Of a stretch of DNA of 35,024 bases, positions 5,968-33,291 are shown in pieces. The stretch's first letter is position 1; the number at the start of each line of letters is the position of its first letter. This DNA is from Mycoplasmataceae bacterium (GTDB taxonomy: Bacteria > Bacillota_I > Bacilli_A > Mycoplasmatales > Mycoplasmoidaceae): the NCBI GenBank assembly GCA_031289655.1, contig JAITPC010000023.1, positions 1-35,024 of the forward strand, given 5' to 3'. A program made the translations under genes and the position numbers. The notes under the pieces are model-generated. The model saw only the letters and a list, made by a program, of their open reading frames with translations. It was not told the origin of the DNA and ran no database searches.

Positions 5968-5996
5968 ATTATATATACCGGGGGGGGGAATTTGTG
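5968..5996 (-). promoter_or_regulatory. Switchable promoter of lipoprotein A (C9 spacer)
   Basis: On the minus strand CACAAA (5996-5991) and TATAAT (5973-5968) are separated by exactly 17 bases, of which nine are a C run (5988-5980). Slippage in the run would change the spacer length. The same arrangement is found at four other lipoprotein genes here. Confidence 0.7.
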
Positions 5997-14028: not shown

Positions 14029-14107
14029 TATACATTAGGATGCAGAATTTTTATACATTAGACATTGGAAAATTTATACATTAGGATTATGAAATTTTAT
14101 GTATTTC
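14029..14107 (+). repeat. 23-bp periodic repeats before the AAA+ ATPase gene
   Basis: TATACATTAG occurs at 14029, 14052 and 14075, exactly 23 bases apart. A decayed fourth copy (TATGTATTTC) lies at 14098 in the same phase. Flanking T runs and GGA/GAA are also partly shared. The array fills the gap between the divergent yidC and ATPase genes and ends 4 bases before the ATPase TATAAT, so it may be an operator array or a promoter duplication. Confidence 0.6.
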
Positions 14108-14122
14108 ATATATAATATAATT

Positions 14123-15355
14123 ATGGAACAAGTAAAATATAAAAGACATCTTTCAAAATTGTTAAGGGAATTATTGAAACAGTTTTCATGTGTGATGATA
14201 TCAGGACCTAGGCAAATAGGAAAAACAAGTATGGTAATTGATACAATAAAAGGTTTAGGAAAATGAAATGATGTAGATTTGAGCAAAGAAGAAAACAAAG
14301 AAAATGCTCTTAAAAATCCTATTTTATTCTTTGAGGAAAATAAAACACCGTTATTTATTGATGAAATCCAAGAAGCTCCAAAATTAATGTCCTACATAAA
14401 AAACGAAATAGATAAGACAAAAAATAATGGTATTTTTATTTTAACTGGTTCGCAAATGTTTAAATTCAATAAAGACATTAAAGAAAGACTTAGCACACGT
14501 GCTGCATTGTTAGATATGTGTCCATTATCCAACTCTGAAATACAAGGCAGGGATAATTTTCCATTCATTATTGATTCTAAACATTTTATTGAAATTAAAA
14601 AATATGCAAGTATTTCAGTTATACAAAATTTAGAGAATATTTTAAAAGGTAGTATGCCAGATATTATGAACGGTAAAATTAAAAACACCTCAGTATTCTA
14701 TTCTTCCTATATCAATAACACAATAATTAGTGATATAACGGAACATATCGCCACAATACGTGATGATACTAAATTCAATAATTTTCTAAAATCATTAGCA
14801 ATTAGGTCAGGACAAATTGTTAATTTGTACAATACTGCTCAAGATGCCGGAATTGATAATAGAACGGCGACTATTTGATTAGATGCACTAAAATCACTTG
14901 GTATAATATTTTTTGTCCATCCTTTTTCTAATAAAAAATCAAAAACCCTGCTAAAAAAACCTAAATTATACTTTTATGATACTGGACTACTATGCCATCT
15001 TTTAAAAATAACAGACGCGAAAGGTTTATATTCAAATAGTTCATATGGTAATGTATATGAAACTTGATGTGTTAGTGAAATAACTAAAACATACATTAAT
15101 GAAGGTTTAATGCCCCCTATTTCATATTTACAGAATTCTAAAGGCGAAGAAAAACTCGATGTTATTATAGAACAAAGCAATGGTGTATATTTAATAGAAA
15201 TTAAAACGTCAACAAACATCAATTCAAAGCATATTAAGGGATTTGAATTACTTGATGAAAATGTTAAAGTTTTGGCTAAAGCTGTTATTTGTCCTATTAC
15301 TCAAATATCAAGTTATTCTAAAGATATATTATTGATACCAAATACATTGATTTAA
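14123..15355 (+). CDS. AAA+ ATPase with DUF4143 (COG1373-like)
   Basis: This 410-residue protein is of the widespread COG1373 type: an N-terminal P-loop ATPase with Walker A GPRQIGKT (about 31-38), Walker B LFIDEIQEAP (about 74-83) and sensor ILTGSQ (about 107-112), then a helical middle. The C-terminal DUF4143 region has YFYDTGLLCHLL and a PD-(D/E)XK-like LDVIIEQ....LIEIKTS core. Biological role is poorly defined; relatives are often accessory or defence-associated genes, and this one stands beside an R-M locus. ATG 14123 follows TATAAT (14111-14116) by 6 bases. Trp codons are TGA, so the gene is adapted to this genetic code. The stop overlaps the end of the convergent specificity gene by 4 bases. 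Confidence 0.87.
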
Positions 15356-16299
15356 GTAGAGTGTTTCATATATTTAGTCATGAAATTTCAATCTGGTTGT
15401 TTATTTCTTACCGGTAAGTTTATTACTGTATTTCAAATTTTATCACCTTTAGGTTTTTTTCCATAATTATATTTATGTTTTTGCGTTTTTGCCAATATTG
15501 TACATATAAACAATGAGTTGTATTCATCTAATTTCTCATTAAATAAAGGCTCTACATCTACGGAAATTCCGCATGGACCTGGTTGATAAAAACAATCAAA
15601 GCATCCACCATTAGTTGAAATTGTTATACATGGAGTTGCGGTTGAAATCTTGTCACTCATTAATACGATGCCATTGTTTACAGCAGAAGACGTTATGAAA
15701 GGAATATTACCGTTAGAATCTGGTTTCTTGGAATATTTCTTAATTTTTTTTCTTTGGAAAATATCGCTTACTTTGAACCCCCCCCAGTTTTTAACGTCTA
15801 ATGGTTTGTTGGAAACAGATATATCAATTTTTACATCAATTGGCATTTTTTTTATATATTCTGTCATAAAATTTCAATCTGGCTGTCCTCTTTTATCTAT
15901 CGGAAGTTTTATTTTAATATTGGGAACCAAATCTTTATTGGAACCATTTCCACTAACATAAGTGAAATTTAATAAGGTGCATAAAAAAATTCCAATTTGT
16001 GGATTCATTTTGAACCTAGGCTGTAAAATATAAATCATCCCATCAGTTATAAAATCATTAGGTTGATAAAATGCTATTCACTTCTCACTTCATTCATGAT
16101 GAATAGTTATGACATTGCCTTTATAAAGTTTATCGTTGTTGCTAGCAGTATTCGTTATACCATTATTTGTAGCAGCACGTGCAACATATGGTATATCGCC
16201 ATCAATCAATTCTGAGCTTTTATAGCCTTTTGCTTTAGCACAAACAAATAAATCACCTATAGTAAAATATTTTTTTAAATTATTAAAATTATTCTTCAT
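15352..16299 (-). CDS. R-M specificity subunit (HsdS/BcgIB-like), phase-variable
   Basis: This subunit directs the methylase-nuclease to its DNA target. The 315-residue protein has two target-recognition halves that start alike (FTIGDLF....AKGYKSSELIDGDIPYV and FKVSDIF....KKYSKKPDSNGNIPFI). Each half ends with PDWNFMT-Y-K (140-150 and 302-312), the conserved segments that contact the methylase. ATG 16299 overlaps the methylase end by 11 bases, so the two are coupled. A G8 tract (complement of 15778-15785) encodes Trp172-Gly-Gly at the start of the second half and is currently in frame. Loss or gain of one G would stop translation within about 4 or 14 codons, leaving a single-half subunit. The 3' end overlaps the convergent ATPase gene. 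Confidence 0.82.
15778..15785 (-). repeat. G8 tract inside the specificity gene
   Basis: Eight G on the coding strand lie at the junction of the two recognition halves. Outside the lipoprotein loci this is the only G or C run of seven or more that I found in the window. Confidence 0.8.
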
Positions 16300-17930
16300 C
16301 AGTTAGTTTAAATTTGCCATTACCTTTTAAAACTTCTTCTTTCAAATCCTTGTTTATCAACATGAAATCTAGTTTAGTCTTAATGAAATCTAGTTTAGTT
16401 AATTGACTATAGTCAACCTCTTTTTCTAATAATCAATTATCTTTATAAGTAACTTGCTTAAATATTGGCTTTTGAGCAAGAAAAACCTTGGTTTTTTCTC
16501 TATTATTTTTGTCAATCCTTCCAATATGTTTTGCCACAATAAATCCATCATCGCTAAAATCATACTGTTCAATTTTTTTACTATGTTTGTTGTGAGCCTT
16601 AAACACCATAATACAAGTTGCAATCCCAGCATTAGGCTGAAATAAATCTTTTGGTAAAGTAACTATCTTTAAAAGAGTATGAAACTTTAATATTTCTTTT
16701 CTCTCTTCTTTGAATTTTGAACCAATCGCACAAGAGATAGGCAAAATGGCAGCACATAAACCATCTTTTTCACAATTATCTAAACTTTTTAAAACAAATT
16801 TCAATTCAGGAACCATTACACTAAAAGGTGGATTCATAAGAATTTTGTTGTAACAATTTTTCAGTTTTGGTAATTTTACAAAGCAGTCCATACAAAATAT
16901 GTTGGATGCTCCATCCCCATGTAACATCATATTAATTCCAGCTAACGTGGCGCTAAAATCATCTAATTCGATCCCAAATATCCTATTTTCTTTAATGTCC
17001 TTTTGCTCTTCCAAATTTTTTGTTTCACTCAACATATTTGCCAATGCATTGGTTAAGAAAGTTCCAGAACCGCATGTCGGATCTAATATTTTATCATTCT
17101 TATTGCAATTAATTATGTTATACATTAGTTGTGCAATATGATCTGGTGTAAATACTTGACCTTTTTCTTGTGCATCGGCAGAATTTCATTTTCTAAATAC
17201 TTTTAGAAAATTATTCATTGTATCATGTCCTTTTTTATCACTAACGTTTATGAAATTAAATATGGTGGAAACTTCACCAATGATATCCAATAAATCCGTG
17301 AACTTAGACTTTCTTAATGTTGAATCACCTAGCGCCGTTTTTAAAAATTCTTTTTTTTCTTTTCTATTTAATGGGTTATCACTTATTATTTCTTCGATAC
17401 CTTCCTTAATTAATCTTAGGATACCTTCAGTTGTATTGGCGATAATATTTTTTTTGAATTTTAAACATAACATGATAGCTCCAATAACAGGAACATTCAT
17501 TTGTTTATTGATATTACTATTTCTAAACATATTTGCAAGTTTTTTTGCTGAATTTTCAACAATTGAACTATTCGTTTGCTTTAAGGGTAAAAATTTATCG
17601 AGGTAATATTGAGCAGATTGTGGCGAAACCTCTTCTTTTTTTAGTTCACCTTTAACATAACATAAAAATTCATCAGCATTATATTTAAAGCCGATAAAAT
17701 TTTCATTTTTTTCAAGTTTCATGTAATCTTCTAATTGTCCTATGAATTTTTTGCCCTGGGCTTTAGCATCCAAAATAAATGTTACTCCATCTTGAAAATA
17801 GTACCCATCAGGTTTAGTACTTATGTGTTCATTCTTATTAGGTTTATATATATATAGTCCCATCTGTTTTATTTTCTAAACCAAGTATTTTAGTGAAGTT
17901 TTTTACTACTTGAAATTCCGAAAGAGACAT
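16289..17930 (-). CDS. BcgI-like nuclease-adenine methylase, frameshifted at TA repeat
   Basis: The product combines a nuclease-like N-terminus with an N6-adenine methylase, as in type IIB BcgI subunit A. ATG 17930 follows TATAAT by 6 bases and opens [20 protein letters not shown]. After 28 codons this frame stops inside a (TA)6 tract (17845-17856); one extra TA would join it to the 524-codon frame that continues to 16289. An internal ATG at 17863 is in that frame. Counting from it, PD (18-19) with D32-A-K34 forms a PD-(D/E)XK-like site. QVFTPDHIA precedes motif I DPTCGSG (261-267), and catalytic motif IV NPPF is at 344-347. No HsdR gene is nearby. It is off or reduced unless slippage or internal initiation occurs; a sequencing error is also possible. 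Confidence 0.78.
17845..17856 (-). repeat. (TA)6 tract at the methylase frameshift
   Basis: Six TA units lie exactly where the upstream and downstream frames of the methylase gene part. Seven units (or four) would give one continuous 548-codon frame including the stop. Confidence 0.7.
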
Positions 17931-21009: not shown

Positions 21010-21505
21010 TTATTCAATAATTGCTCAACCTCTTAAACCTAAGTCATCTAGGAATAACAAATCATTAGACATTTGTCAACCTCCGCTACCTTGTATTTGA
21101 CTAATTTCAACATTGGAATAGTAGTCCTCATAAAATAAATATGTACCTTTATTGTTTTTTCAACCGTTGGTAGTATTGTATAGGATGATAGAACTATCGT
21201 TCCGGGCAATTTCTGCGTAACCAACAGACAAATATCCAATATCAAAGAAAGTTGGAGTGGCTGTATTACCAATTGCGAGGAATCTAGTAGACAGTTCTGA
21301 ATTATAAAACAAATTAAGTCAATCAACACTTTTATCAAAAGTTATTGTTTTGCCTTGAATGTTGTCTCCTGCCTTTAAATCGCATAAATCTAATTGGAAT
21401 TTATCTAGTATTTTATTACAACTAACTAAACTTGTTGAAATGGTAATGCCCCCCCCCAATTAGAGCAATTCCTAATAAACCAAATCCAATTTTTGTTTTA
21501 TTCAT
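21010..21505 (-). CDS. GLRGW-family lipoprotein B, frame OFF (G9)
   Basis: This paralogue of the other lipoproteins is now out of frame. From ATG 21505 the signal peptide NKTKIGFGLLGIALIGGG is encoded through a G9 tract and then stops after 23 codons. With G8 the frame would continue as ISTSLVSC (a good lipobox) and run 164 residues to the end LDDLGLRGWAIIE, sharing CDLKAGDN with lipoprotein D and FDK..DW and GGWQ with A. Everything after the tract is intact, which argues for a switch rather than decay. TATAAT lies 6 bases before ATG and the promoter spacer is 17 bases, but its C run is broken by A residues, so only the coding tract can vary here. Function unknown. Confidence 0.78.
21449..21457 (-). 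repeat. G9 tract in the lipoprotein B signal peptide
   Basis: Nine G on the coding strand, in the Gly codons of the signal peptide. The two in-frame paralogues have eight. One deletion restores the 164-residue frame. Confidence 0.85.
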
Positions 21506-23140: not shown

Positions 23141-23693
23141 TATCGAAGACCTTGCATCAACCTCTTAGACCAGCATCTTCCAAATCTTGCATTGTGATTC
23201 CACCATAGTCTGAATAACAATTCAATATATATGATTCGAAGTTTCAACAATCTAAAGTCATTCCTTTTTTTGATTTATATTTACTAGTTCAATTACCATT
23301 TTCGAAATAAGAATTAATTGGTGTCCCAACCGGCTCAAAACCAACTTCAAAGGTCATATCACCAATATATGTTCCGTTCGCGTTATCTGAGATTGTATAA
23401 GAAAAGCAGTGATTATCTATAGTAGCGGACTTAAACATATCTCCGCTTACTACTTCTAAAGCAAAATAAAAAGCATTATTATTTTTACCTATTGCATCTA
23501 ATTTGGCAGATCAATCAATTTTTTCATTAAAAACTAATCTTTTACCATACAAGTTAGTCCCTGGCAAAAAGTCCAATAAATCAATCCCGATTTCACCCTT
23601 ATTAGAACAACTAATTAAACTTGTTGAAAGACCAATGCCCCCCCCAATTAGAGCAATTCCTAATAAACTAAATCCAATTTTTGTTTTATTCAT
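23130..23693 (-). CDS. GLRGW-family lipoprotein C, double-switch, frame ON
   Basis: This predicted lipoprotein has 187 residues. The signal peptide is NKTKIGFSLLGIALIGGGIG followed by LSTSLISC, with the lipid-modified Cys at about 29. Its Gly codons include a G8 tract that is in frame. The mature region has GKRLVFNEKIDW, IGDMTFEVGFEP in the middle and LEDAGLRGWCKVFDIIF at the end, closest to lipoprotein A. ATG 23693 is 6 bases after TATAAT, and the promoter spacer holds C9. Both transcription and translation can thus be varied by slippage, and both now read as ON. It is convergent with rplX (11-base overlap) and divergent from tilS. Function unknown. Confidence 0.85.
23638..23645 (-). repeat. 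G8 tract in the lipoprotein C signal peptide
   Basis: Eight G on the coding strand encode part of IGGGIG in the signal peptide. This length keeps the frame open. Confidence 0.85.
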
Positions 23694-23699
23694 AATTCA

Positions 23700-23728
23700 A
23701 TTATATACACCGGGGGGGGGAATTTGTG
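23700..23728 (-). promoter_or_regulatory. Switchable promoter of lipoprotein C (C9 spacer)
   Basis: Minus-strand CACAAA (23728-23723) and TATAAT (23705-23700) are separated by 17 bases including C9 (23720-23712). Confidence 0.7.
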
Positions 23729-25764: not shown

Positions 25765-25793
25765 CACAAAATGCCCCCCCCCCGGTATATAAT
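25765..25793 (+). promoter_or_regulatory. Switchable promoter of lipoprotein D (C10 spacer)
   Basis: CACAAA (25765-25770) and TATAAT (25788-25793) are 17 bases apart, with C10 at 25774-25783. The tract is one base longer than at A and C, and the flank is shorter by the same net amount, so the spacer is still 17. Confidence 0.7.
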
Positions 25794-25799
25794 CCAGTT

Positions 25800-26216
25800 A
25801 TGAATAAGACAAAAATTGGATTTAGTTTATTAGGAATCGCTCTAATCGGGGGGGGTATTGGTCTTTCAACAAGTTTAACTAGTTGTAATAATGTAATCAA
25901 AATACCGCTTTTATTCCCGCTAGATTTATGTGATTTAAAGGCAGGTGACAACATTCTTTCACCTTTTTCTTTGTATATAAACAGTAGTGTTGCTTTTGGC
26001 GGTGGATGAATTGGATATAACGATAAAGCAAGTGATATCTTTCTTTTTTACTCTAATGCATGAATTACAAACAGTTATGTTTTAGACGCTGATTGCTACT
26101 CAGATGTTAAAATTGTTCAAAGATCACCGTCAGGAGCTGATGAGGATAATATTTCCATATACAATCTTTTATTTCTAGCCGAATCAGGTCTAAGAGGTTG
26201 AGCAACTATTTCTTAA
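25800..26216 (+). CDS. GLRGW-family lipoprotein D, double-switch, frame ON
   Basis: This short lipoprotein has 138 residues. The first 27 residues are almost identical to lipoprotein C (NKTKIGFSLLGIALIGGG, LSTSLTSC). The signal-peptide codons include an in-frame G8 tract (25848-25855). The mature part shares CDLKAGDN with lipoprotein B and ends LAESGLRGWATIS; it lacks the central region seen in A and C. Trp codons are TGA. ATG 25800 is 6 bases after TATAAT, so the predicted transcript begins at or next to the start codon. It follows tmk and is convergent with the dehydrogenase gene. Function unknown; a surface role is inferred from the lipobox and the switching. Confidence 0.85.
25848..25855 (+). 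repeat. G8 tract in the lipoprotein D signal peptide
   Basis: Eight G in the Gly codons of the signal peptide. This length keeps the frame open. Confidence 0.85.
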
Positions 26217-32159: not shown

Positions 32160-32188
32160 CACAATTCTCCCCCCCCATGAAATATAAT
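32160..32188 (+). promoter_or_regulatory. Switchable promoter of lipoprotein E (C8 spacer)
   Basis: CACAAT (32160-32165) and TATAAT (32183-32188) are 17 bases apart and include C8 at 32169-32176. The -35 differs by one base from the other four copies. Confidence 0.65.
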
Positions 32189-32197
32189 TAATAATAT

Positions 32198-33291
32198 ATG
32201 ACTAGAAATAAAATGCTTACTTTAAAATGATTTTTAATATTGGAAGGCGGAGGAATAATTACTTTAGCTACACCAATTACAATGACAGCTTGTGCTGACG
32301 AAGGACCCGTTATTCACGATTTAATACAAATGAATGCAGATCTTCTGGCTAAAAATTTTATCTTTGTAAATAATGCTGTATTAAGTATGGAATGTAGTTT
32401 TTTTAATAAAAACTTTTATGATATTAAAGTCTCTTCTACATTGCAAGGAATAAAAGGAGCAAGTAACATTTGAAACGGTATTGCTTTTCAACACGATATT
32501 TATTCACCTAATGGCGAAACTATGATAGAGGCTTCGGGCATTCCAGCCAATATTTATAATAGCACTTTATTCATAAGCTTGGGGGGGTAGTAAGTTCATG
32601 TAATTTTATTGTTGCTGGACCTGAAATTTTAACAATGCACCAAAACCCTGATACTTTCGCTAATTTTACGGTAAATAGTGCAATTCCTTCCAATACAACA
32701 ATGGTTCTTGGCAGTGCTGATTATTTTTATAGTACTGCAACTTCTATGACTATGTCATGTAGTTTTGGAGATAATAGTTTTACTTTAGGCAATACTTGGA
32801 ATGGCATGACAACACAAGCAAAAATTTCAACTGGCTATGCCGATGAAGGAAAACAATTATCTATTATAGGCGCTGGTACTCCTATAAATGGCTATCATGA
32901 CATTTTATGATTTAGTATTAGCGGAATAAAAAAATCTGTATCAGTAGATATTAGGTATAATAAAAATGGATGGACACAATATGGATCGATTTTACCCCTT
33001 GTATTAGGAACAACATACGCTCAATGAACTAGTTTTGTTAGTATTGACATTTACAACAATTGTATACCAACTAATTCATATGATGTTTCTATTGCTTTCA
33101 TGGCTGGCGAAATTAAAGGATCATATACTAGTGCTTATCATGGATGTCACTTTAAAGCATTTGTTGATTATGATCAAAATTGTTACATAGGTGTTAGAGG
33201 GGTATGCGGAAATCCACCTAATGTTACTAGAAATCTATCTTTTAAAATTAATAATTATGCACATATTTTTCAAGTTGTAGTTAAATATTAA
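32198..33291 (+). CDS. Large predicted lipoprotein E, frame OFF at G7 tract
   Basis: ATG 32198 lies 9 bases after TATAAT. The first 130 codons have a signal peptide with LILEGGGI and a lipobox TMTAC (Cys about 32), then stop at TAG just after a G7 tract (32581-32587). One extra G (G8) would continue the frame for a total of 364 residues to TAA 33289-33291, with no other stop. The distal part is rich in Ser, Thr, Asn, Tyr and Trp, with segments such as SMTMSCSFGDN and YDVSIAFMAGEI, and ends in VVVKY, suggesting a beta-rich extracellular domain. It lacks the GLRGW end of lipoproteins A to D but shares their promoter type. Function unknown; an off-phase surface protein is inferred. Confidence 0.75.
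32581..32587 (+). repeat. G7 tract that closes the lipoprotein E frame
   Basis: Seven G directly precede TAG. G8 (or G5) would join both halves of the gene into 364 residues. Confidence 0.75.

Follow-up and report, generated by a model that had tools for sequence, protein, structure and literature searches.

Specificity (S) genes in which a poly-G tract switches the target of a restriction-modification (R-M) system are already known, BcgI-like systems included. The closest precedent for the locus described here is HpyUM032XIII, a BcgI-like Type IIG system of Helicobacter pylori UM032, whose half-S methylates the palindromic sequence CYAN7TRG while the fused form methylates CYAN7TTC (PMC4450513). 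NgoAV, a type I system of Neisseria gonorrhoeae that an earlier note on this DNA had rightly named as a precedent, recognizes the symmetric site GCAN8TGC with truncated S and the asymmetric site GCAN7STCA with fused S (PMC9577141). The BcgI-like pairs HP1471/HP1472 and JHP1364/JHP1365 of H. pylori have a G tract of variable length (13/14) within S, and the effect was described there as a loss of full translation; as repaired HP1471/HP1472 of H. pylori 26695 showed no methylation (PMC3936762), not every member of the family is active. For the Type IIB enzyme BsaXI, which forms an (RM)2S complex, an engineered TRD1-CR1 fragment (TRD, target-recognition domain) together with RM was found to cut the symmetric sequence AC N5 GT (PMC9159934, PMC11997821). 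Among Mollicutes, repeat lengths at HsdS loci of Candidatus Mycoplasma girerdii vary in a living population; these loci were reported as type I with dinucleotide repeats, and the effect on specificity was left open (PMC5476646). Repeats in type I hsdS genes have also been catalogued, with a share of 7.9% of hsdS genes (PMC7394358).

The window, by which we mean the whole analyzed stretch of 35,024 nucleotides, is contig 14 of a Mycoplasmataceae metagenome assembly (572 kb, 43 contigs, 85% complete) whose family relatives include Ureaplasma canigenitalium (G085 = NZ_KL544010.1). With HpyUM032XIII its R-M locus shares an RM fusion with S encoded separately, a G tract between the TRDs, and slips of this tract that yield either half-S or full S. 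It differs in the length of the tract (G8 compared to G12/G11), in coming from a Mollicute with TGA = Trp, and in having its own (TA)6 repeat in RM; also, the tract of H. pylori-type alleles ends 19–22 nt before TRD2, whereas the tract in the window overlaps the first TRD2 codons. NgoAV is a type I parallel whose specificity gene likewise has a central poly-G run, but it has separate HsdM and HsdR subunits, whereas RM of the window is one protein. The likeness to HP1471/HP1472 and JHP1364/JHP1365 lies in a BcgI-like RM and an S with a G tract, of variable length in the H. pylori pairs, and the likeness to the Candidatus Mycoplasma girerdii loci in Mollicute specificity genes with repeats. BsaXI, in contrast, was truncated by engineering, without a repeat tract, and has longer conserved helices and extra knob/paddle domains.

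The S gene and its G8 tract

Reading the window genes requires TGA = Trp (code 4). The features of the S gene are as follows, with TRD borders taken from a profile built on related TRDs:

15352..16299, minus strand: ORF of the specificity (S) subunit with two TRDs, 315 aa, frame intact in the assembly
15847..16272, minus strand: TRD1, from the TRD profile; model residues 5-151 with high pLDDT; ends in PDWNF and a short helix
15790..15846, minus strand: inter-TRD linker, residues about 152-170, pLDDT under 50 at 155-164
15778..15785, minus strand: G8 tract (C8 on the plus strand), coding for Trp172-Gly173-Gly174
15358..15789, minus strand: TRD2, from the TRD profile; model residues 172-314; missing from slipped forms

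Pfam Methylase_S matches two stretches of the S protein (9.7e-19) and the PADLOC model Specificity_II spans it from end to end (1.8e-28). A comparison with the sequences of solved structures gave no match for S; in the fold search, type I S subunits rank first and BsaXI S lower. Since the profile puts TRD2 at 15789-15358, the G8 tract overlaps the first TRD2 codons, and both the ORF coordinates and the position of Trp172-Gly-Gly at the second recognition half, as given in the earlier note, agree with the frames and the profile. The codons TGG GGG GGG TTC read W172 G173 G174 F175; in the first S alignment, which comprises eight proteins, W172 and F175 never vary, whereas the two codons that separate them are variable, usually KE, KI or KY, and it is these that the tract replaces.

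Reading the frames, we found that loss of one base (G7) leads to a stop after 176 aa (WGGSK) and gain of one base (G9) to a stop after 186 aa, matching the expectation of about 4 or 14 further codons. The truncated forms had been described as half-subunits with the PDWNF segment, and indeed both retain TRD1 and PDWNF (residues 140-144). The AlphaFold model of S shows both TRDs with confidence (mean pLDDT 88.5), residues 155-164 disordered and no defined arrangement of the two halves relative to each other (pTM 0.53); no long conserved-region helix between the TRDs is predicted in this model. According to the profile borders and the model, slipped S thus consists of the whole TRD1 module and the linker, and the gene carries an inter-TRD simple repeat whose slips yield half-S or full S, as in a repeat-driven specificity switch. 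The slipped forms are unlikely to yield TRD2 on its own here, as there is no in-frame ATG, GTG or TTG between the tract and the TRD2 start; such a start codon is present in a few split relatives.

Long G/C runs are abundant in the window (28% GC): we observed 8 runs of at least 8 nt compared to 0.037 expected from first-order base frequencies, and the whole genome contains 123 overlapping G8 matches compared to about 0.6 expected runs. S is the sole R-M gene among the window genes bearing such runs, the others being located within or just 5' of small lipoprotein or surface-protein genes. These runs of 8-10 nt (5980-5988, 21449-21457, 23638-23645, 23712-23720, 25774-25783, 25848-25855 and 32169-32176) lie just 5' of small lipoprotein/surface genes that belong to no Pfam family, and inside their signal peptides; across the genome, many G/C runs form opposite-strand pairs about 75 bp apart. 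These surface genes look like a large phase-variable repertoire. A further G7 tract (32581-32587) sits at the end of the surface-protein ORF 32198-32590, where its length decides on read-through into ORF 32635-33291. The convergent neighbour of S (14099-15355, plus strand), which overlaps it by 4 bases, encodes an AAA+/DUF4143 ATPase with a strong match to the PADLOC candidate defence model PDC-S01 (1.7e-81). We found no second genome of the same species for a comparison of tract length.

The RM partner and its (TA)6 repeat

The partner gene, which combines a nuclease-like segment with an N6-adenine methylase, has the following features:

16289..17863, minus strand: RM ORF, 524 aa from an internal ATG, 11-base overlap with the start of S
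17723..17812, minus strand: PD..DxK..QxxxY nuclease-like motif of RM; D19, K34, Q43 and Y47 invariant in 13 relatives
17845..17856, minus strand: (TA)6 repeat in RM; first 28 codons in another frame than the rest, RM frame-broken in the assembly
17844..17930, minus strand: 5'-terminal part of RM; its translation is homologous to the N-termini found in intact relatives

RM is matched by REase_MTase_IIG (5.6e-51, the best PADLOC model) and N6_Mtase (2.2e-29), and in PADLOC S fits Specificity_II far better than the type I models. The N-terminus of RM contains PD-x12-DAK and QxxxY; as no Pfam nuclease family model matches this N-terminal segment, we read the nuclease from its motifs. The predicted RM structure resembles type I M and BsaXI RM, with structural matches mainly at residues 94-486 and the nuclease part scarcely covered. 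Of the two activities that BcgI-like systems unite in one polypeptide, the methylase is certain and the nuclease is putative, recognized by its motif, in an RM whose frame is broken near the start; the separate two-TRD S is encoded directly beside RM, the two genes overlapping. The locus is flanked by infB and the DUF4143 ATPase and contains no HsdR; the source genome's own HsdM/HsdS/HsdR set sits together on contig 37. The classification as type I, which the earlier note had implied, is therefore rejected: methylase and nuclease-like segment are fused, type IIG and type II models fit the two subunits best, and HsdR is found elsewhere. Judged by these sequence features, the locus is best classed as a BcgI-like Type IIB/IIG R-M system. 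The type I S gene of the source genome carries (AG)7 in the central region between its TRDs (L099:6438-6451), so that both S genes found in this genome bear a junction repeat.

The (TA)6 repeat in RM had not been mentioned before. Intact N-termini are found in the relatives L083, L084 and L085, and the internal ATG at 17863 is still located 5' of the PD..DxK motif. Because of the frame break at (TA)6, the present output of the locus could be low or altered, whatever the state of S; should the assembled frame of RM be truly broken, a silent or altered locus may persist until (TA)6 changes. In several relatives, the 5' part of RM or the DNA immediately preceding it contains a repeat, namely (GA)9, (AT)7, (TA)10, (GA)7 or (AG)8, and some have (AT)8-9 between the nuclease-like part and the methylase. 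Two sequences from the window's genus, L092 and L093, are 98.8% identical over 3.5 kb and differ by a single indel that shifts the RM frame, (AT)9 versus (AT)8; repeat slippage is thus directly visible within the genus, in RM and not in the S tract considered here. These AT repeats are found at L092:1791-1808 and L093:1756-1771, one RM being fused and the other split, with a methylase-frame ATG just 5' of the repeat. Such a repeat could separate nuclease and methylase.

In the closest RM relatives (50–64% identity), which occur in assemblies of Mollicutes, Helicobacteraceae, Campylobacter, Rickettsiales and Bacteroidales, a single TRD was detected, and the four of them from the window's family are RM-TRD fusions. 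One TRD per RM is therefore normal in this lineage. The spread of five relatives with 53–61% identity (L101, L105, L107, L108 and L109) over Rickettsiales, Helicobacteraceae, Campylobacter and Bacteroidales assemblies suggests either cross-phylum transfer or misbinned contigs.

Repeats at the TRD junctions of related S genes

We collected S genes from the window's family, a GTDB-wide scan with the RM alignment, Clostridia, Campylobacterales and further stretches; the group names Clostridia and Campylobacterales were inferred from the loci used as search centres. In the 137 genes with two or more TRDs we counted G/C runs of 8 or more and dinucleotide repeats of 6 or more units. The junctions, which make up 11% of the sequence (15,906 nt), contain 40 of the 41 long repeats, compared to 1 within the TRDs (127,083 nt). 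Only 0.225 junction repeats would be expected from a Markov model trained on TRD sequence (binomial 2.6e-37, a value that treats homologues as if they were independent), and with looser thresholds the counts are 44 junction repeats and 8 others. No repeats were counted in the 90 nt 5' of TRD1 in the 137 S genes. The junction repeats consist of G, AG/GA, AT/TA or CT units and belong to 35 genes from Mollicutes, Campylobacterales, Clostridia, Rickettsiales and others. Flanking TRDs lie in different frames at 18 of 40 junctions with a repeat but at only 4 of 108 without (Fisher P 6.6e-9); as the genes are related and do not represent independent counts, the P-values of this survey overstate the significance.

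H. pylori-type S alleles, which we recognized by their QCRLAELE central repeat, a feature described for H. pylori (PMC3077401), are more than 90% identical and have tracts of G8, G9, G13 and G16, with both frames represented. In a smaller sample, for which S genes of the window's family were sought with the general Pfam S model, 27 multi-TRD loci that are probably mostly type I had 11 repeats at junctions and 0 in TRDs. The occurrence of different units at one place argues for repeated origin. In Mollicutes, Campylobacterales, Clostridia, Rickettsiales and others, including three-TRD arrays that have a repeat at each junction, unrelated units are found within one common stretch of about 100 nt, and we see roughly even chances that this reflects a convergent cross-phylum design for slippage-driven change of specificity. 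A search of the open-licence literature retrieved no description of the junction as a near-exclusive repeat site across phyla.

One of the three-TRD S genes (L090:191-1777, minus strand) reads in one frame and has repeats at both junctions, (AG)7 and (GA)9; arrays resembling it are also present in Clostridia and Campylobacterales. In four S genes (L007:1960-1977, L088, L089 and L090) the (AG)n junction repeat codes for Arg-Glu-Arg-Glu directly after PDWxYMxxYI; L088, from the cultured Ureaplasma canigenitalium ATCC 51252, is a naturally split allele. A change of (AG)n by three units would add two residues to the linker without a frameshift, and might alter the spacer length as in EcoR124I.

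Probable switching of specificity and alternative explanations

Switching of specificity at this locus appears likely from our analysis. On balance we favour the more detailed reading that the G8 of S is a slippage-prone tract switching the specificity of a BcgI-like system, with (TA)6 as an on/off or dosage switch. With G8, full S (TRD1 and TRD2) would guide (RM)2S to a bipartite site that is asymmetric. With G7 or G9, translation would end just past the linker and leave a complete TRD1 module, and two copies of this half-S would come together in the RM complex and address a symmetric site of two TRD1 half-sites. As (TA)6 near the RM start would turn the system on or off or set its dosage, two small tracts together could give off, symmetric and asymmetric states. 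This reading presupposes slippage of the tract within the population, a stable and active half-S, and different sites for the two forms, all of which we infer. The location of the tract at the first TRD2 residues, the frame outcomes, the disordered linker 155-164 between folded TRDs, the one-TRD RM relatives, the survey of junction repeats, the differing tracts of H. pylori-type alleles, the AT slippage between L092 and L093, and the half-S experiments with HpyUM032XIII and BsaXI all argue for this reading, while the broken RM frame at (TA)6, the lack of a predicted long inter-TRD helix, the unmethylated result for repaired HP1471/HP1472 and a nuclease read from motifs speak against it.

Among the alternatives, plain on/off phase variation ranks highest, although we consider it rather unlikely. 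Here, the slipped half-S would be unstable or inactive, and the linker, being the least ordered part of the S model, would merely tolerate a repeat and the variable peptide it encodes. Ordinary on/off tracts are common in R-M genes, and for BsaXI, expression of TRD2-CR2 by itself failed and activity suffered from deletions in CR1 (PMC9159934). However, half-S is active both in HpyUM032XIII (PMC4450513) and in BsaXI (PMC9159934), and a repeat near the gene start would serve an on/off switch equally well or better, yet the region before TRD1 was free of repeats in all surveyed S genes. Also, the nearest RM relatives are natural one-TRD RM fusions.

Ribosomal or transcriptional slippage on G8, which would produce full S and half-S from one genotype in a fixed ratio, ranks next and seems improbable. 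GGGGGGG is a slippery sequence in principle, and G8 ranks among the shorter of the observed tract lengths; but close alleles in relatives differ in tract length and frame, and the same junction also harbours dinucleotide repeats, on which ribosomes slip poorly. More improbable still is a chance or artefactual origin by a low-complexity linker, a homopolymer error of the assembly or a decaying gene. The fragmented and incomplete metagenome assembly and the broken RM frame would fit such an origin, whereas the excess of G8 and longer runs over expectation, an S frame open over 315 codons, the conserved W172 and F175 framing the tract, and the recurrence of junction repeats across phyla do not.

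If the favoured reading of a slippage-driven specificity switch holds, a switch demonstrated for a single enzyme each from the gonococcus and Helicobacter now extends to a wall-less bacterium. Our data further suggest that 'split' S genes, which are usually read as broken or off, often encode working half-subunits with another target, which could be tested simply by comparing the motifs methylated under naturally split alleles with those under fused ones. If true, the half-subunit reading would change the genome-based view of methylomes, phage resistance and phasevarions in several phyla.
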